Below, in pieces: positions 8,717-21,865 of a stretch of 37,164 nt of DNA. Positions within the stretch are counted from its first letter, which is position 1, and the number at the start of each line of letters is the position of its first letter. This DNA is from an uncultured Pseudomonadota bacterium (lineage in GTDB: Bacteria > Myxococcota_A > Polyangia > Nannocystales > Nannocystaceae), in the NCBI GenBank assembly GCA_913061055.1, contig CAJXVA010000031.1, positions 1-37,164 on the forward strand. Reading direction: 5' to 3'. The notes under the pieces are model-generated. The model saw only the letters and a list, made by a program, of their open reading frames with translations, had not been told where the DNA came from and made no database searches. The translations under genes and the position numbers were made by a program.

Positions 8717-10060
8717 CTACCGCGCGAACCAGCCGAGCCAGGTTTCGTGGTCTGCGGTTGTTGTTGTGACCACGACGTTCTCATCTGCGGTGAGGCCGAT
8801 GTGGCAGTGGTAGCCGAGAGGCGGCTCCTGGACCAGCATCGAGCTCCACTGGACATCCCCGCTCTCGGTGAGTCGTAGGATGAGTACGAACTCGTTCTCC
8901 GGATCTTCGTCGACGTCGATACACGCGAACACGTTGCCCTCTGCGTCTACCGCCAGGTCCTGAGCCCCTCCGGCCACATCGTGCTCCCAGATCCAGTCGA
9001 CCTCGCCGCCCCCGGTGAGCTTGGCGATGAACGCGGTATTGCGGAAGGACTCGAGGTCCTCGAACCCTCCGGCGACGTAGATGCTGCCGTCGGTACCGAC
9101 CTGGATCGACTTCGGAACGTCGCGCCCGCCGGCGCTGAGGTTGATCGTCGATTCCCACAACAGATCCCCGAGCGCGTCGTAGGCCTGCAATGCCGTGACC
9201 CGATCGTTGTCTTGGATCCGGCTGAACAGCAGCACCGCTTCACTGCTGGGGCCGGCACCGACGAAGGTCGTGTTCGGGTAGCCGTCGTTCAATGGCGTCT
9301 CGCGTGTCCACAGCAGCGTGCCGTCAGCATCGAGCCTTCGAAGGACCGCGCTGACCGTGCGGTGACTGGCGATGTAGATGCCCCCCGCTGCGTCGATGTC
9401 CGCACCGTATGCGCCCCTGTCCGAGCCCGGCCCCTCGGTGTCCTCGTTCGTCCACAGCAGGGCCCCATTTGGGTCGAGGGCGCGTGTCCAGGCGTACTCG
9501 TCGCTGGATACGCTGCCAAGTGCATGGCGGGCGCGGCCGGAGTAGACAACAGTGCCGACCGGGTCGACCGCGAGATCCTGAGCGGACGCATACTGCGTCT
9601 CGGGGTCCTCCCATTGGTGGGACCACTGCGTCGCGCCAGCGCTGTTGAGCTTGGTGACCTGAGTCGACCAAGTGTTGGTGCCGCCGATGCACCTGTGCTC
9701 GAGCACCACGACGTTGCCGAGCGCATCACCGAGCACCGCCTGCCCGCCGCACCCGCCGACGATGATCTCGTTCAGCAACGACCCCGGCCGCTGACAGAAC
9801 TCGTTGCACACATCGCTTGCGCCGCCTGAGTCGCACGCTTCGCCGGGATCGACGAAACCATCACCGCACGTGCTCGGAGCATCGATCGTCCCTTGTGAGC
9901 CGTCACTGTCCGTCCCCCCTGCATCGCCCGCGTCGGAACCGGCGGTCGGCCCAGAACCATCACCTGTGCCGGCACCGCTTTCGGAGTCGGACTCGAACGC
10001 GACTTGAGGGCCGCAGCCCAGTCCCACGCACAAGAAGAGTCCAAGCCACCGAACCAACAT
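8717..10060 (-). CDS. lipoprotein with Myxococcus Cys repeat and beta-propeller
   Basis: The ATG at 10060 is chosen over an upstream open frame because it starts a typical lipoprotein signal (MLVRWLGLFLCVGLGC, Cys16). A Gly/Ser/Asp linker of about 35 residues follows. Then comes a myxobacterial Cys-rich repeat, CGDGFVDPGEACDSGG with CNEFC. The remaining 370 residues contain six blade-like repeats of the form [LA]x.YDA.G.LLW and D.AVDA.GN.[FY]VAG (for example IAKLTGGGEVDWIWEHD and DLAVDAEGNVFAC), as in SBBP or PQQ-like propellers. Total length is 447 residues. The same order of parts occurs in the second half of the fusion protein at 14890-17766, so the two are paralogues. A surface-exposed role is inferred; no enzyme motif is seen. 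Confidence 0.85.
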   Translation of the reverse strand: MLVRWLGLFLCVGLGCGPQVAFESDSESGAGTGDGSGPTAGSDAGDAGGTDSDGSQGTIDAPSTCGDGFVDPGEACDSGGASDVCNEFCQRPGSLLNEIIVGGCGGQAVLGDALGNVVVLEHRCIGGTNTWSTQVTKLNSAGATQWSHQWEDPETQYASAQDLAVDPVGTVVYSGRARHALGSVSSDEYAWTRALDPNGALLWTNEDTEGPGSDRGAYGADIDAAGGIYIASHRTVSAVLRRLDADGTLLWTRETPLNDGYPNTTFVGAGPSSEAVLLFSRIQDNDRVTALQAYDALGDLLWESTINLSAGGRDVPKSIQVGTDGSIYVAGGFEDLESFRNTAFIAKLTGGGEVDWIWEHDVAGGAQDLAVDAEGNVFACIDVDEDPENEFVLILRLTESGDVQWSSMLVQEPPLGYHCHIGLTADENVVVTTTTADHETWLGWFAR

Positions 10061-10325
10061 CACACGCCACAAGACAGACGACAGACTCGCACGCGGTCCA
10101 GCAAGCTGAGGTTGGCGGCAACGCGGTGGACCTCGGAACGGCCGAAGTTCAACTGCGTCGGCTCCGGGCAAGATGCAGCACGTTCGCCGCACGATGGGCC
10201 CGCCCGAGCCCCGCGGCGTCGCGGTCCCGCCAACCCGGTTCGGTGCTCCCGCCCTGCACGCACTGCGGTGCAGCGATCCGCCGGGCCTCGGAGGCCGATG
10301 AGGCACGCGGTCGCCCCGCCCCTCC

Positions 10326-14889: not shown

Positions 14890-17766
14890 CTAAGGCGACA
14901 GCTTCGCGATCCACGACGCAGCGCCGGCACGCCCACCCACGATGAGCATGTCCGCCTCATCGACGAGCAGCGCAGTCGCGAAGTCTGTGCGCGTCGTGGT
15001 CGGCTCGCCGTACTGGCGGGTCCACAGCAGTTCACCTTGCGGCGACAGCTTCCACACCATGGCCTGCCAACCGCGGTCACCATCGAATGCCTCGCCAGCC
15101 ACCGCAATCCGCCCGACGGAGTCGATCACGACCCGCCTGGCCGCATCGTTACCAAAGCCCGGCTGGGGGAGTTTCGCCTGCCACAGAAGCTCGCCCTCCG
15201 AAGAGAACGCCATGCAGACCGGCCCGATCGCACTCCCCCGAAGCAAGCGGCCGCACGTCACGAGATTCTCCTCGTCATCAAGCGTGGCCCCCAGCATGAA
15301 GTATCGCGTCAGGATCTCCCGGAACTCGAACGCGGAAAGCTCGACGCCATCATCGTCGTAGCGGCTCACCCACAGCGAGGCCTCCGCCCCATAGTCTCGG
15401 GTCCCGACGACGACGTTGTCGCCCGAGGGAGCACGGAGCAGTGTGTACCCGTACCCCTGAGAGTCCAACCCGACGTCGTCGGAGACGCTCCAAACGAGCG
15501 CTCCGGCGGCATCGTAGCGACGCAACGCAAACGTGAGCTCCGCGGGGTCGGGATCGCCCGCCACCCCCAAAGAGCCTGTGACGAGGTGTCCCCCATCGCT
15601 CATGGCCATGACATCGCGCCATGACTGATCGAGGTCGGTGAACTCGTCTTCCGATTGCGCCCAGACGATCTCCCCTTGGGCATCGCACCGTACAGAAAGC
15701 GCAGCCCGCTGCGCATCCCCCTGCGGTTGAGACACTCCGACAATGTGAATGCCACCGTCATCCCCCACCGACACACCGTCGTAGGACGACCAGCGAACCG
15801 CCGGGTCGGGGTGTTGACGAAGCCACACCTCCTCGCCATCGGGCGTGAACTGAGCGACGAACGGCGCGGCGTTTTCGGCCTTGTCTTCGTACCACCCCAC
15901 CGCGATCACACTCCCGCCGGGGTCAAAGGCGAGGTCGGTGATCTGGCGTTCGGACTCTCGCGCGTGTTCCCAGACCGGTTCCCCCGACAACGTGCAGTCG
16001 GGATTGCAGCCGTCTCCCTCCACGTCGTTGCCGTCGTCGCACACCTCCCCCTTCTGCAAGACACCGTCCCCACAGCCGGGCTCGACCGCCTCTCCCGTGG
16101 ACGTCGAGTCTGCTGTGTCGCTGCTCGATCCGCTTGAACTCGAGGCGTCCTCGGAGAGCGTCGAGGAGTCAGGTTCGCTCGAGGATCCCGTGGTGCTCGA
16201 GGTCGAGGAGGTTTCGCTGCCATCGCCCGGCGTCGAGCTGGGGTCGGAGCCGCACCCGACGGCGGTCGACGCCGCAACGATCGCGGCCGCAGCCGAGACC
16301 CGGCGGCGACGCAAGAAGCCCCACAGGGGGATCACCAGCCACCAGGCGTCCCAAGGGGACGAGCCGTCCACCACGCAACCGCAGCCGGAGTCCCCGCTGG
16401 CAGAGGCGCCATCGGTCGCGCTCCCCGAGGAGCCCGACGACCCGCCCGGTTCAGGCTCACTGCCGCTGCTCGACCCATCGTCGTCGCCCTCGGTGCCATC
16501 CCCGCCCCCACCCTGCGAGGTGGAGGACGTCGCGTCCTCATCTTCGGGGCGCTCTGGCGGGTCGACATTGACCCCAAAGATCGCCTCCTGAGGCTCGGCT
16601 TCGTTCCCGGCACGGTCCACGCCCTCCGCCCGCACGGTGAACACCCCCTCGGGGAACTCGAGGTTGTCGAACGCGAACGGTGCCGCGTGATCGGTCGCCT
16701 CGAACACGACCTCGTCGCCGGAGAGGATCTGCAACGTCAGCGTCTCCACTCCCCAGCCCCCGTCATCGTCCACCTCCACCCGAACCGGGACGGTGACGGT
16801 CGATTCTCCGAAGTTCAGGTTGAACCGCTCGCCATCCGAGGGGCTCACCACCTCGAGCAGGGGCGCGGAGGTGTCGACGAGATCGGGGTCGAAGGGGTCG
16901 CCGCAGCTCGAGATCTCGGCCACCGACGGCCCGAAGGAACACCCTGCCGCCCAGGTGCCCGAGGCGTCGGCAGGATCGCCGGGGAGTCCGGCGCACTGTG
17001 GTCCAGGATTCCAGCGACCGTCTCCGTCGTGACACGGGGTGATGTCGATGTTGCTGTCGCTTTCGATCCACGCGAGCCCGTTGTGGATCATGGAGTAGTA
17101 GGTCCCGATCCCGCAGCCCCCCTGCCCCCAAGAGGCGATGCCGAACACGCGCCACGAGCCGTCCTCCAACTGCACCAACGCCGGCCCACCGGAGTCTCCA
17201 TTGCATGCACCGGCGGTCTCATCTCCGATGAAGACCTCATCCCACGAGAACGCCGTGATCTGCGTCTGCACCCAGCGCTTGATCCCATAGTTCTCTTCGG
17301 GGTCGTCGTTGATGCCGAATCCCACCAGCGTCACATCGCGGCCCTCCTGCAAGTACTCGTCGACCTCGCATCCCATCAGCGGTGGCACGGTCGGGATGTC
17401 CTCGATGGGCTCGGGGAGCAAGCAGTAGGCGAAATCGGTACCGACCCCCCATTCCCCGGTGGGATGGACGACGCAACGCTCCGGGATCACTTCCCGCGCT
17501 GTTTCGTCGATCGTATCCCCGAATCGGATGTATGGGACATCCTCGCCACAATGGGCGGCATAGATGACCACCTGCGGATGCACGAAGCTTCCGGTACACG
17601 ACCCCCCCATGCTGACCGCAGCCGGCCAACCGCAAGGGTCGACGACGTCGCCGCCAAGGATCGCATTTGGTTCGCGCCCCGAGTTCAGCGAGCCGGCCTC
17701 CGCGATCCCCGGTGCGAGCCACGTTCCGCACATCAGAGCTGAAAGCAAACCAAGGTGTCGGAACAT
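14890..17766 (-). CDS. trypsin-like protease, MYXO-CTERM-like anchor and lipoprotein propeller fused in one frame
   Basis: One 958-codon frame with an ATG at 17766 encodes a Sec signal (1-24), an S1-family serine protease (about 37-235; activation site NA|ILGG, catalytic His72, Asp111, Ser192 in GDSGGP, Cys57-Cys73 around the His), and a beta-sandwich segment (about 300-405). A Gly/Ser linker leads to a MYXO-CTERM-like tail: GCGC at 461-464, hydrophobic 472-485, then RRRR at 486-489. Normally a protein ends there. Here the frame continues with VSAAAAIVAASTAVGC, a lipobox at Cys505, a Ser/Thr linker, a Myxococcus Cys repeat (565-591) and a propeller. Gly186 occupies the S1 pocket position that is Asp in trypsin, so trypsin-like specificity is unlikely. 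The second half is a paralogue of 8717-10060. A TTG at 16314 could be an internal start. Confidence 0.85.
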   Translation of the reverse strand: MFRHLGLLSALMCGTWLAPGIAEAGSLNSGREPNAILGGDVVDPCGWPAAVSMGGSCTGSFVHPQVVIYAAHCGEDVPYIRFGDTIDETAREVIPERCVVHPTGEWGVGTDFAYCLLPEPIEDIPTVPPLMGCEVDEYLQEGRDVTLVGFGINDDPEENYGIKRWVQTQITAFSWDEVFIGDETAGACNGDSGGPALVQLEDGSWRVFGIASWGQGGCGIGTYYSMIHNGLAWIESDSNIDITPCHDGDGRWNPGPQCAGLPGDPADASGTWAAGCSFGPSVAEISSCGDPFDPDLVDTSAPLLEVVSPSDGERFNLNFGESTVTVPVRVEVDDDGGWGVETLTLQILSGDEVVFEATDHAAPFAFDNLEFPEGVFTVRAEGVDRAGNEAEPQEAIFGVNVDPPERPEDEDATSSTSQGGGGDGTEGDDDGSSSGSEPEPGGSSGSSGSATDGASASGDSGCGCVVDGSSPWDAWWLVIPLWGFLRRRRVSAAAAIVAASTAVGCGSDPSSTPGDGSETSSTSSTTGSSSEPDSSTLSEDASSSSGSSSDTADSTSTGEAVEPGCGDGVLQKGEVCDDGNDVEGDGCNPDCTLSGEPVWEHARESERQITDLAFDPGGSVIAVGWYEDKAENAAPFVAQFTPDGEEVWLRQHPDPAVRWSSYDGVSVGDDGGIHIVGVSQPQGDAQRAALSVRCDAQGEIVWAQSEDEFTDLDQSWRDVMAMSDGGHLVTGSLGVAGDPDPAELTFALRRYDAAGALVWSVSDDVGLDSQGYGYTLLRAPSGDNVVVGTRDYGAEASLWVSRYDDDGVELSAFEFREILTRYFMLGATLDDEENLVTCGRLLRGSAIGPVCMAFSSEGELLWQAKLPQPGFGNDAARRVVIDSVGRIAVAGEAFDGDRGWQAMVWKLSPQGELLWTRQYGEPTTTRTDFATALLVDEADMLIVGGRAGAASWIAKLSP
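16252..16386 (-). other. anchor-to-lipobox hinge inside the protease fusion
   Basis: These codons (residues 461-505) carry GCGC, a Trp-rich transmembrane stretch, four Arg and then a 15-residue hydrophobic stretch ending in the lipobox TAVGC. If both stretches span the membrane, the Arg cluster is cytoplasmic and both flanking domains are outside. The Arg cluster would serve as the stop signal of the first anchor and as the n-region of the second signal. Confidence 0.7.
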
Positions 17767-17922: not shown

Positions 17923-18936
17923 TTAGAACACGACGCGCAGCTCAAACGCGACAGTCCAAGGGCGGGGACGCGCGAGCCGGACGAACCGGCTGTCGACCGT
18001 GTTGAGGTCCTCCGTTTGGTCGGACCAGTCCTCGCACTCCTCGACTCCATCTGGGGCCTGGCCATCGATCGTCGCGCAGACCTTTCCCGCGATGGCGAAG
18101 CTCTTGTCGTAGCGCAGGCCCAACGCGACGCGGTCTGTGACGTAGACCGGGATGCCTGCACCCAGGGTGGCTCCGGCTCCTGACTCCCAGTACTTCACCT
18201 CGCCGGAGATCCCGTCAACGTCTGCGACGTCGACGGCTCTGCGAAATCCGATGCCGACGGACGCGTAGGGGTCAAAACGGCCTGCGGCGATAGGGAAGAA
18301 CTGCAGGACCGGCCCGACGTGGAAGAAACGAGTACTCCCCGAAGCCTCAACGGTGAAGTAGATGTCCGAGTTTTCTGAGGCTGGTGTGTCGTACGTCCCG
18401 CCCGCCAGCGACGCGCTCGCCCCCACAGCGACAGTTCCCCAGCGGTAGCCGGCCTCGAACCGACCCGATCCCAGCGCTGCCATATGGCTGCACCACGTCC
18501 CGCAGTGTCCTGCGCCCACACTCACCGAGATGAACCCTCCCTCTCGGTTTGGGTTCTGAACGCTCGTGGGCTGGAGTTCCTCCTCGGCGTAGCCCGGTCG
18601 AGAGTCGAGTGGGGGCCGCTCGTCCTCGGTGACGTTCGCGACGGGTTCCGAGAGCGGCTCTGGATCATCTGCGACTGTCGCGGGCGTCGCTTCGGATGCC
18701 GCTTCGGGCTCAGCCGAGACCTCTGCCGCCGCGCCCGCCTGCGCTGCCGCCTCAGGCTCGACTTCAGTCGCGCTGCCGGTCTTGGGCGCCGCCGGTACGA
18801 CAACGTCTGACGCTTCCGCCTCCGGCGCGGGTGCAGCGTCCGTCGGTTCGACGTCCTGCGGCGGACTCGGTTCGGTTCGTGGTGCCAGGGGCACCGGCTG
18901 GCCGGCTAGCAGCACCGCTAGAATTGCAACATCCAT
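17923..18936 (-). CDS. outer-membrane beta-barrel-like protein with Ala/Glu/Pro linker
   Basis: The ATG at 18936 is preferred because a short hydrophobic signal (MDVAILAVLLAGQPVPL) follows; the upstream open frame to 19209 is not protein-like. Residues about 22-115 are a low-complexity Ala/Pro/Glu/Ser spacer. The C-terminal 220 residues alternate aromatic and small residues in strand pattern (FISVSVGAGHCG, FEAGYRWGTVAVGASASLAG, RFFHVGPVLQFFP, YASVGIGFRRAV, ATLGAGIPVYVTDRVALGLR, WTVAFELRVVF) and end in Phe, the usual C-terminal signature of outer-membrane barrels recognised by the BAM complex. Eight strands would fit an OmpA/OmpW-sized barrel. Two Cys pairs (CGTWC and C..EEC) are in loops. Function unknown. 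The gene lies 156 bases upstream, on the same strand, of the protease fusion gene. Confidence 0.78.
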   Translation of the reverse strand: MDVAILAVLLAGQPVPLAPRTEPSPPQDVEPTDAAPAPEAEASDVVVPAAPKTGSATEVEPEAAAQAGAAAEVSAEPEAASEATPATVADDPEPLSEPVANVTEDERPPLDSRPGYAEEELQPTSVQNPNREGGFISVSVGAGHCGTWCSHMAALGSGRFEAGYRWGTVAVGASASLAGGTYDTPASENSDIYFTVEASGSTRFFHVGPVLQFFPIAAGRFDPYASVGIGFRRAVDVADVDGISGEVKYWESGAGATLGAGIPVYVTDRVALGLRYDKSFAIAGKVCATIDGQAPDGVEECEDWSDQTEDLNTVDSRFVRLARPRPWTVAFELRVVF

Positions 18937-19022
18937 GTCCCGAGGACCTGTATCAGAACAAGCCCAGAGATGGGCGGGGAGATCAATCGCTGGGACGTGT
19001 GGGGCCGAGGTCAGACCCGGGC
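18937..19022. other. intergenic, no gene seen
   Basis: Together with the doubtful small gene at 19023-19334 this makes a 372-base stretch between two firm genes. It shows no promoter or hairpin that I can support. Confidence 0.35.
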
Positions 19023-19334
19023 TCAGCCGCACGCCTCGGAGATCGACGCCGCCGTTGCGTCCCGATCGAGGTCCGCCCTGGATACGTATTCGTCGCCGGT
19101 GACAACCGCCAATGTTCGGAGCCGCGCGGACCCTGGGCTTCGCGGCGGACCCATCGAAAAGCAGCACAAAACGACCCTCCCGGTGATCACGACGACCCTC
19201 TGGGGGCACTGGAAGGAGGCGAGCGGACGGGCGATGCGGGTGCAGACCGAGACGACCAACGACGCCTCATCCTCGCTGTACCGTTCCGCGACCCGCTCGA
19301 ACGACGGCCTACCGGCAGACCGTAGCGTCCCCAT
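19023..19334 (-). CDS. possible small protein, weakly supported
   Basis: A 103-residue frame starts at ATG 19334, overlapping the end of the propeller lipoprotein gene by 26 bases. GGGGAG lies five bases before the ATG, which is a good ribosome binding site. Third-position G/C is high but lower than in its neighbours. The translation (RPSFERVAERYSEDEASLVV, then a Cys/Val-rich centre, then GDEYVSRADLDRDATAASIS near the C-terminus) reads partly like a protein, with one hydrophobic stretch around residue 50. No signal peptide and no family. It may be the third gene of the cytochrome operon or a chance frame. Confidence 0.3.
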   Translation of the reverse strand: MGTLRSAGRPSFERVAERYSEDEASLVVSVCTRIARPLASFQCPQRVVVITGRVVLCCFSMGPPRSPGSARLRTLAVVTGDEYVSRADLDRDATAASISEACG

Positions 19335-20658
19335 CTCCTCTCCCCGCGTACAACACCCCGAACTTCCTCTGAACCTTCCGCCCCTTCGTGTACCGCGAGT
19401 ACTTCCCCGCGACCCACACGTCCCCCATCCCGGCCGCCTCCGCCTGCAGCACCTCCACCCGCGTCCCCTTCGGATCGGGCTGCTCCAAGGCGATCGGATG
19501 CCACGCTCCGTCGTCAGTGCGCGCATGCAAATCCCCCATCGAGTCCACGACCAGCGGGCTCGAGCCCTCGATGCCCGAGAGAGTCTTGACCTTCTCGATC
19601 GACTCTTTTTCCCACCCATTCTCGTTCTGGCGGAACACGCTGCCCCCGGACAAGAGCCACACGGATCCGTTCGCATCGACGGCCAAGTCCTTCACCCAGG
19701 TCCCGGCACCTTCGAGCTTCGTCAGCGCACCGTCCTGCAGACGATACAGCCCCACCCCGTACAGCGAGACGTACCCGTTGCCGTCGGGGTCCAGCTCGAA
19801 CTCGCCGCCCTCGATGCCGTCACCAAGCGCGGTGAGGGTCCCATCCAGGTCGTCAGGACTCCAGCGGGCCAGCCACCACTGGTCACATTTCGCCAGGGCG
19901 GTGACGGGGCCTTGCTCGGAGACGTCGACGGCACGTAGGGAGACACGTTTGCATCCGGGCTTGCTGCGGAGGATGTCGAGGGAGGGGCCCTTGCCCGAGC
20001 CACGGATCACGGGCAGACGGGTCTCGTAGGTGCCATTGCGCTTCCAAGCATCGACGAGGGCCAGCGTGGATCCATCGGCCCAGGGCCAGACACCGCCCCA
20101 CACGGCGTTGGGACCGAGCATGCGAATCATCGTCCACGATCCGTTCTTGCGCGAAGCAATGCGCACGCCGTCGATGTCGCGAAACGCGTAGTCGACGATT
20201 GCGAACAGATCGTCCGGCGAGCGCCCTGCGAACTGGACCAAGCGCCGCGGAGGGAAGCGCAGCGCCTCCCCCTCGAACGGCTGCGCCCAGGAGAGCTCAT
20301 AACGCAGATCCTGCGCCACGGTGCCGTCGGGGCCGATGCGCTGGATGATCGGGTCGAAGGCGGGATACCCCGAGCCCTGGTGAAACTCGTGGTGCACCGT
20401 GAACAGCTCGTCGCCCAGGATCTGAATGCTCGGGTAACGGCACTCGCCCCACGCGAACACCCGCACGGTGGGCGGATCGGCCGGCGCGATCGGCTTGAGG
20501 GCGGGCCCTGGTTGCGGCTGAGGTGTTGGCGCCTCTTCGACAACCTCAGGCGAGACTTCGTCGGACGCCAAGGCGTCGGTGCGCTCGGGAGGCGTGAGAC
20601 CCTGCCCCTCGGGGGCACAGGCGGTGAGCAGGACGAGGACGGTCGCGAGACGGTTCAT
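19309..20658 (-). CDS. propeller lipoprotein, coupled to the multiheme cytochrome gene
   Basis: The start ATG at 20658 overlaps the TGA stop of the upstream cytochrome gene (ATGA), a sign of translational coupling. The signal MNRLATVLVLLTAC is lipidated at Cys14 and followed by a short Pro/Glu linker. The 449-residue body contains propeller-like blades: DDLFAIVDYAFRD, ADGSTLALVDAW, GEFELDPDGNGYVSLYGVG, KDLAVDANGSVWLLSGGS and VVDSMGDLHARTDDG. The pattern A.VDA.G.VWLL is typical of two-component-sensor-like or NHL-type propellers. A C-terminal Lys/Arg-rich stretch (SRYTKGRKVQRKFG) precedes the end. A role alongside the cytochrome at the outer membrane is inferred from the coupling; there is no catalytic motif. 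Confidence 0.85.
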   Translation of the reverse strand: MNRLATVLVLLTACAPEGQGLTPPERTDALASDEVSPEVVEEAPTPQPQPGPALKPIAPADPPTVRVFAWGECRYPSIQILGDELFTVHHEFHQGSGYPAFDPIIQRIGPDGTVAQDLRYELSWAQPFEGEALRFPPRRLVQFAGRSPDDLFAIVDYAFRDIDGVRIASRKNGSWTMIRMLGPNAVWGGVWPWADGSTLALVDAWKRNGTYETRLPVIRGSGKGPSLDILRSKPGCKRVSLRAVDVSEQGPVTALAKCDQWWLARWSPDDLDGTLTALGDGIEGGEFELDPDGNGYVSLYGVGLYRLQDGALTKLEGAGTWVKDLAVDANGSVWLLSGGSVFRQNENGWEKESIEKVKTLSGIEGSSPLVVDSMGDLHARTDDGAWHPIALEQPDPKGTRVEVLQAEAAGMGDVWVAGKYSRYTKGRKVQRKFGVLYAGRGDGDATVCR

Positions 20659-21686
20659 GGGAGGGTGCCTTGGTACACAACGATGCGATCGAAGACGTGG
20701 GGAGCGTCGCGGTCGAACGTGACGTCGACGCGCTCGTAGGCGAGACGCCAGAGCACGGTGGAAGCATGGGCGTCACCCAGCTCGAAGCGGTGGACGGGCT
20801 CGAAGTCCTCACCGCCGACGCGGGTGTCGGCCCGCTCGCGCGCTTCCTTGAAGAAGCCGACCCGCTGAGTCTCGAACGCCCGCGTCAACGCCCGACGCTC
20901 CAGGGGTACGAGGCCCTCGGGCGTCACCGCATCGAGCTCGAGCAGCAGCCGCCGAAACGGGTCTCCTGTGGGAAACGTGTGCCCCACCCGGCCCAGGCTC
21001 AGCGTCAGCGTGACCACCTCAGCCTCGGGCCGCGCGGCGACAACCGACACCGCCGAGCGAAGCATGTCCGGGTCGCGCGACGCGATGAAGCCGTGGCTGC
21101 GCCGCACGGGCCCCACCTGCGGCATGTGGCAAGACTGGCAGCTCTCTCCGGCCAGCGCAGACCCGGCGTGCTCGATGAGCGTCGTCTGCATCATGAACCC
21201 GGGCTGCCGTTGGGACTCGAACTCATGACACCCTGCGCACGCCTGGGCGGTCGCAAACGCTGGGTCACGGACAACCGGATGCGGTGAAGGACCGCGCGAG
21301 AGCGCGTCCGGACTGCCGAGTACTGCCTCGCCCGGCAAGCCCATCTCCGCGGGGGCGTGGCATGTCACGCACGCCACCCCCATCGCCGCCTCCTGCGCCG
21401 AGGGCTCCGCCAGCGGATCGGCCTCGGGCGCGTGGCAACTGCGACACAGCGGGTTCGGCTCCCGCACGGAGGCGAAGTCGGCATCGGTCCACGAGCGCTG
21501 GTGTAGCGATCCGCTCCAAGTCTGCGCCACGTCCCGGTGGCACCGCACGCAGGCGGCGTTTCGAACGGCGCGAGAGGGCGACGGCGTGCGAGGGGTTGAG
21601 GACGTGACGCGGGGTTCGGTCCGGTCACACGCGGACAGGAGGGCCAACGCCAAGCAAACGACTCCGATCCGCATCACCAGGCTCAT
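20655..21686 (-). CDS. five-heme cytochrome c lipoprotein
   Basis: The open frame starts at 21773; ATG 21686 is chosen because it opens the lipoprotein signal MSLVMRIGVVCLALALLSAC (Cys20). An ATG four codons later is also possible. The 343-residue protein contains five CxxCH heme-attachment motifs at residues 46-50 (CVRCH), 81-85 (CRSCH), 106-110 (CVTCH), 150-154 (CAGCH) and 183-187 (CQSCH), with additional His at 62, 136 and 173 as possible distal ligands. The C-terminal 130 residues are a beta domain that includes VGHTFPTGDPFRRLLLEL, a motif often found behind multiheme modules. The product is expected to be exported, matured by the cytochrome c system and membrane-attached, passing electrons in respiration or to extracellular acceptors. 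It is coupled to the lipoprotein gene downstream. Confidence 0.9.
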   Translation of the reverse strand: MSLVMRIGVVCLALALLSACDRTEPRVTSSTPRTPSPSRAVRNAACVRCHRDVAQTWSGSLHQRSWTDADFASVREPNPLCRSCHAPEADPLAEPSAQEAAMGVACVTCHAPAEMGLPGEAVLGSPDALSRGPSPHPVVRDPAFATAQACAGCHEFESQRQPGFMMQTTLIEHAGSALAGESCQSCHMPQVGPVRRSHGFIASRDPDMLRSAVSVVAARPEAEVVTLTLSLGRVGHTFPTGDPFRRLLLELDAVTPEGLVPLERRALTRAFETQRVGFFKEARERADTRVGGEDFEPVHRFELGDAHASTVLWRLAYERVDVTFDRDAPHVFDRIVVYQGTLP

Positions 21687-21865
21687 GGCAAGTCTACCGC
21701 GACTGCGGGAATGGGACGCGGGAGGGCACGAGGAGTATTCCGATGGGACGGCGCTTCTTCCTATCGGACACAAGCCCGCGCCCGGGGACGCGATCCCCAG
21801 ACTCCCGCGGCTCGGGTTCGCGGTACGATGACCGCGTGCTGACTCCCCACCAGGGTCATCGTCCT

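Follow-up and report, generated by a model that had tools for sequence, protein, structure and literature searches.

In bacteria, polyproteins with cleavage at an internal sorting signal are rare. The fbcH cytochrome b/c1 precursor of Bradyrhizobium gives rise to two proteins through a cut at an internal signal peptide and in this resembles the precursor described here, from which it differs by the use of signal peptidase I, the lack of a C-terminal sorting signal and the delivery of a single complex. In Myxococcota, proteins with a MYXO-CTERM tail (TIGR03901) are sorted to the surface by the myxosortases MrtX, MrtC and MrtZ (PMC11980579). Processing by MrtX is cysteine-dependent and works in E. 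coli, and the proposed lipidation of MYXO-CTERM proteins is still hypothetical (PMC11980579). The same work reports that internal sorting signals are functional, calls ORFs with an internal MYXO-CTERM rare and mentions MXAN_5598 of Myxococcus xanthus. This protein, presented there as an isolated case that is rare and atypical, carries an internal MYXO-CTERM for which processing is proposed and is read as a two-gene fusion; its second half is a beta-barrel (adhesin plus outer-membrane beta-barrel/OmpA) and not a lipoprotein (PMC11980579).

In archaea, two once-separate genes were found to be fused in HVO_0405 of Haloferax volcanii, and its central PGF-CTERM is cleaved by the archaeosortase ArtA. 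This protein is archaeal and strain-specific and depends on an unrelated enzyme; in the part of the source that was available, a second lipoprotein signal is not described (PMC7157517). Finally, the MYXO-CTERM gene of the TraA/TraB pair of M. xanthus shares 4 nt with the envelope-protein gene that follows it (PMC3325183).

Layout of the protease-lipoprotein frame

The window analysed here is a 37,164-nt stretch of DNA from an uncultured bacterium of the Nannocystaceae. A protease-lipoprotein fusion in one frame had been proposed in the initial annotation. The frame reads on the minus strand from an ATG at 17766 to a stop at 14890 with no internal stop, and the order GCGC-hydrophobic-RRRR-hydrophobic-TAVGC is as described. 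Its parts are listed below.

14890..17766 (-): complete ORF of the fusion, 958 codons and a stop; L258 and L259 are colinear with it
17695..17766 (-): N-terminal Sec signal peptide, about residues 1-24, sequence MFRHLGLLSALMCGTWLAPGIAEA; assigned by inspection
17086..17655 (-): S1 (chymotrypsin-like) protease domain, residues 38-227; PF00089, E 4e-17
16558..16875 (-): Ig-like region, about residues 298-403; weak PF19077 match, beta strands, pLDDT about 70-90
16387..16557 (-): Gly/Ser/Asp-rich linker, residues 404-460; read from the sequence
16375..16386 (-): MYXO-CTERM signature GCGC, residues 461-464; within the TIGR03901 match at 459-489
16312..16353 (-): first hydrophobic segment (MYXO-CTERM helix), about residues 472-485; from the sequence and alignment A2
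16300..16311 (-): shared Arg cluster RRRR, residues 486-489; conserved in alignments A2 and A4
16312..16314 (-): in-frame TTG, codon 485; sole candidate lipoprotein start adjoining the Arg cluster, without conservation in the remaining fusions
16255..16299 (-): second hydrophobic segment (lipoprotein h-region), residues 490-504; from the sequence
16252..16266 (-): lipobox TAVGC, residues 501-505, with predicted lipidated Cys505; Gly504 and Cys505 invariant in three orthologues
16081..16251 (-): Ser/Thr-rich linker, residues 506-562; from the sequence
15988..16080 (-): myxo_disulf_rpt / DUF4215 Cys repeat, residues 563-593; TIGR02232, E 1e-10
14893..15972 (-): beta-propeller, residues 599-958; delta-60 and SBBP-type matches, AF2 model and Foldseek
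8717..10063 (-): remote free-standing lipoprotein related to the second half; lipobox VGLGC, 23% identity

The protease half matches chymotrypsin C and tryptase in the PDB, and the intact S1 triad that had been claimed for it is in place (H72, D111, S192). Residue 186, which occupies the S1-pocket position six residues ahead of the catalytic Ser, is a Gly that is invariant among the window ORF and its two orthologues. The S1-pocket Asp of trypsin-like specificity is thus absent, as the initial annotation had argued.

In the same way as in described MYXO-CTERM proteins, a signal peptide, an ectodomain, a linker, a Cys motif, a helix and an Arg cluster are found in the window ORF, together with a cognate MrtZ in the genome. 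The Cys signature, hydrophobic helix and Arg cluster form a complete tandem. It differs from those proteins (PMC11980579) in that the signal is internal, with 469 residues beyond the Arg cluster, in that a lipoprotein-type signal and a second protein follow directly, and in its TIGR03901 score of 16.8 bits (E 0.007), which does not reach the cut-off of 20, versus 26.3 for a related fusion at G000:C106. The features of a signal peptidase II substrate (positive n-region, uncharged h-region, lipobox Cys) are present as RRRR-VSAAAAIVAASTAVGC, but within the translated chain, at Cys505, and not at its N-terminus. Downstream, the Cys repeat scores 41 bits against TIGR02232 at 564-593, above the cut-off. 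The C half is predicted to be all-beta and its AF2 model matches PDB beta-propellers in Foldseek, for example 6flu (TMt 0.70) and the surface lipoprotein BtuG2 (TMt 0.61). This model has a mean pLDDT of 53, is of low confidence except for the Ig-like region and the propeller, and is uninformative on the hairpin.

The view that the two modules also occur alone was supported. A free-standing paralogue of the second half had been placed at 8717-10060; a relative does exist there, but it is remote (23% identity, E 7e-7 in a single comparison), and its lipoprotein start lies near 10063, within a longer ORF. The fusion gene is preceded on its own strand by two genes, at 20655-21770 (-) and 17923-19206 (-), for a product that resembles multihaem cytochromes and has an MtrC/MtrF-type match and for a beta-barrel protein of the outer membrane.

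A check for a missed stop or indel at the junction had been proposed, and it is answered by a scan of named genomes, in which a colinear fusion with an open junction was found in MAGs of two other species, L258 (genome G007, the same locus as L129) and L259 (G008), at 38-40% identity. All three proteins keep the RRRR cluster, Gly504 and Cys505 unchanged, and L259 contains one Cys (GGCRV) where the window ORF has GCGC. Because the fusion is colinear in two other species, sequence comparison indicates that the window fusion is real, neither a missed stop or indel nor an oddity. In L129/L258 the first 66 protease residues are displaced and the frame is intact from residue 67 to the end. Residues 32-66 match the other strand immediately ahead of the remaining gene (G007:C39, around 413461-415500), and no strong inverted repeat flanking the displaced segment was found; this 5' end reflects an inversion or a misassembly.

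Recurrence of the architecture across Myxococcota

A junction profile built from six sequences (A1) was searched in all 29 genomes of the family and an enlarged one of 16 sequences (A2) in 284 Myxococcota genomes, counting only stop-free frames with a Cys motif, a helix, an Arg cluster and a lipobox. At least about 39 MYXO-CTERM-to-lipobox fusions were obtained in total: at least 19 in 12 of the 29 family genomes and in six of its 12 genera, and at least about 20 in other Myxococcota families. These counts are lower bounds, the phylum search having scored no more than a few candidates per genome. With the same profile search, no fusion was detected in the seven genomes of genus g9 of the family. 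A degenerate DNA pattern (GCGC-RRR-GC) yielded mostly chance matches in these GC-rich genomes, with control counts equal to the real ones; it was uninformative, and protein profiles were therefore used instead.

The window genome itself contains two more in-frame fusions. L091, a 755-aa frame, joins an S1 protease to a Cys-rich lipoprotein half, and L088 joins a DUF11 protein to a vWA-like lipoprotein half that bears the motif FLFVIDSSESM and has no Pfam match. Partners are mostly unrelated, and for several fusions conservation extends over different genera or families. The sets below were grouped from shared sequence by eye and Pfam, with no trees.

S1 protease + propeller: window, L258, L259
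S1 protease + Cys-rich: L091, L092, L124
DUF11 + vWA-like: L088, L089, L128, L131, L132
GH15 glucoamylase + alpha-amylase: L126 (Pfam), L125 (by similarity)
'WGEIxNPYGP' C half: L130, L166, L167, L176
MopE + ASH domains: L168, L187
Cys-rich pair, about 1400 aa: L165, L175, L181, L184, L188

Across these unrelated partners, nearly every fusion of the A2 alignment retains both cysteine landmarks, the Cys motif and the lipobox Cys. In three other fusion pairs dN was lower than dS in the N half, the junction and the C half, with dS near saturation in two of them, and purifying selection thus acts on these fusions. Beyond what the initial annotation had considered, the predicted tandem is a recurrent, phylum-wide architecture and not one odd gene.

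Stop-free matches lacking a lipobox were left out of the count. L134, L135, L178, L183 and L189 are short or low-complexity extensions, L186 is doubtful, and L190-L192 have beta-barrel or other non-lipobox partners. In these last three, the frame runs on from the MYXO-CTERM into a signal that lacks a lipobox and then into a second envelope protein; they are the barrel-type cousins of MXAN_5598 in this survey, and L191 joins a subtilase to a TonB-dependent receptor. Some fused partners act together, such as this pair and the glucoamylase and alpha-amylase of L126. L126 and L125 each place two starch enzymes in one precursor, as a MYXO-CTERM GH15 glucoamylase and a lipoprotein alpha-amylase.

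In a literature search, which did not reach the main in silico myxosortase study, no report was found of the tail-to-lipoprotein class, its recurrence or its conservation. What is known comprises the rare internal MYXO-CTERM and a cleaved central ArtA site; the lipoprotein-linked class is apparently new. For annotation, many ORFs of 700-2500 aa labelled 'MYXO-CTERM' or 'hypothetical' are probably two proteins.

Proposed processing of the precursor

The reading that we favour, with a probability of about 0.72, is that of a bipartite out-in-out precursor cut by a myxosortase and by Lgt/LspA into two lipidated proteins. The N-terminal signal peptide would export the protease, and the MYXO-CTERM helix would then span the inner membrane from outside to inside. 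The Arg cluster, which had been described as common to both signals and is indeed conserved, would form a minimal cytoplasmic turn, from which the lipoprotein h-region would span back from inside to outside and bring Cys505 to the outer face. This topology, already part of the initial annotation, is implied by the opposite orientation of the two hydrophobic signals. Once the GCGC cysteine or cysteines are lipidated, MrtZ may release the protease near GCGC, while Lgt and LspA would act at Cys505 and free the propeller as a separate lipoprotein, the leftover two-helix hairpin being degraded. The output would be two differently anchored surface or envelope proteins in equal dose from one translation event. 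Lgt is nearly universal in Gram-negative bacteria. We know of no characterised lipoprotein signal that is cleaved 505 residues into a chain and behind another membrane span.

The myxosortase-type enzyme and signal peptidase II that had been anticipated are both encoded in the window genome, in the form of one clear myxosortase, MrtZ (NF040915, 388 bits against a cut-off of 325), and three homologues of LspA (PF01252). Two of the latter lie in tandem at G000:C20:16209-18146 and the third elsewhere in the genome. In M. xanthus, lspA redundancy was linked to antibiotic TA, according to a title cited in PMC11980579. A CPBP protein, L198 (G000:C44:11768-11995), resembles the archaeomyxosortase MrtA at 100 bits, below the cut-off of 200.

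Uncut, the chain would keep protease and propeller together in one membrane protein, anchored by the two helices of the hairpin and with both domains on the periplasmic side, and a hairpin with a four-Arg turn could well be a stable anchor. A mere anchor needs neither the Cys motif nor the lipobox Cys, yet both are kept across unrelated partners. Moreover, the window genome encodes a myxosortase and LspA, and internal C-terminal sorting signals in other proteins are functional or are cleaved (PMC11980579, PMC7157517), so that an uncut chain appears unlikely. Processing of one signal only, with LspA freeing the lipoprotein and the protease keeping its helix as an anchor, or the reverse, would fit the weak MYXO-CTERM scores of the window ORF and some relatives as well as the single Cys of L259. 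It is at odds with the retention of both cysteine landmarks in nearly all fusions and is likewise improbable.

Re-initiation within the frame, from TTG 16314 or some other codon, would make the lipoprotein also or mainly a separate product and the fused frame incidental. The TTG that had been singled out does exist and directly precedes RRRR, giving a plausible lipoprotein signal M-RRRR-VSAAAAIVAASTAVGC, and translationally coupled MYXO-CTERM/lipoprotein pairs are present in the window genome. Nevertheless, the 36 fusions read at codon level have no start codon in common at the Arg cluster, and five of them (L089, L164, L169, L174, L176) are free of ATG, GTG and TTG all the way from the Cys motif to the lipobox Cys, so that the lipoprotein there cannot start alone with a usual codon. 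Whether or not re-initiation occurs, the frame is free of stops and the protease half would still be made fused. By codon-level comparison, re-initiation is thus not the general mechanism; for the window gene, which does have its TTG, it is unlikely, and as an account of the fusion it is given quite low odds. An assembly or sequencing error joining two adjacent genes through a missed stop or indel could be suspected in a fragmented draft of 913 contigs. As the same open junction recurs in other species that were assembled independently, and in dozens of further fusions, this explanation is largely refuted; GC3 is moreover even along the whole ORF, and an artefact is very improbable.

If the bipartite precursor is indeed cut at both signals, a C-terminal sorting signal can be joined directly to an N-terminal one, phylum-wide and with mostly unrelated partners, and two surface proteins would be supplied in matched doses. 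The fusions would then be natural reporters for MYXO-CTERM processing, including Cys lipidation, the enzyme responsible and the order of cuts. The data suggest a little-noticed way of making two anchored surface proteins from one chain. A broader view is that Myxococcota repeatedly use the MYXO-CTERM/lipoprotein hairpin with its shared Arg cluster as a standard polyprotein device, which would yield a fixed-ratio pair through myxosortase and LspA and be selected for functional pairs; its chances are about even. Retention of the fusions may be due to dose matching of the partners, such as glucoamylase and alpha-amylase or, in the non-lipobox L191, subtilase and TonB receptor, or to a neutral ratchet, in which loss of the internal start makes a fusion hard to undo.

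Unfused neighbours and the probable origin of the fusions

The fused state is a minority, with three of about 59 MYXO-CTERMs in the window genome. None of the other 56 tails is fused, and in all of them the frame ends 0-27 aa past the match. For about eight of these 56 a lipoprotein ORF was found within some 60 nt downstream, a count drawn from a chance test that served for counting and not as a null model, its matches being mostly real neighbouring lipoproteins. In L226 (ATG) and L234 (GTG) the MYXO-CTERM gene overlaps the lipoprotein ORF by 4 nt. TraA/TraB shows the same overlap, likely the precursor state, but differs from the window gene in that it consists of two separate ORFs and TraB is not a lipoprotein (PMC3325183). 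A MYXO-CTERM gene just before or overlapping a lipoprotein ORF is a plausible ancestral state, and the precursors probably arose many times from such tightly spaced or overlapping gene pairs by loss of a stop and a start.

Profile matches that contain a stop were used as a negative control, and 13 of the 14 had no lipoprotein signal beyond the stop. In the remaining one, L304 (G256:C453:3016-3180), RRRR is followed by a single TGA and then by an in-frame lipoprotein signal. This locus is an apparent fusion intermediate one codon short, or a candidate for stop read-through.
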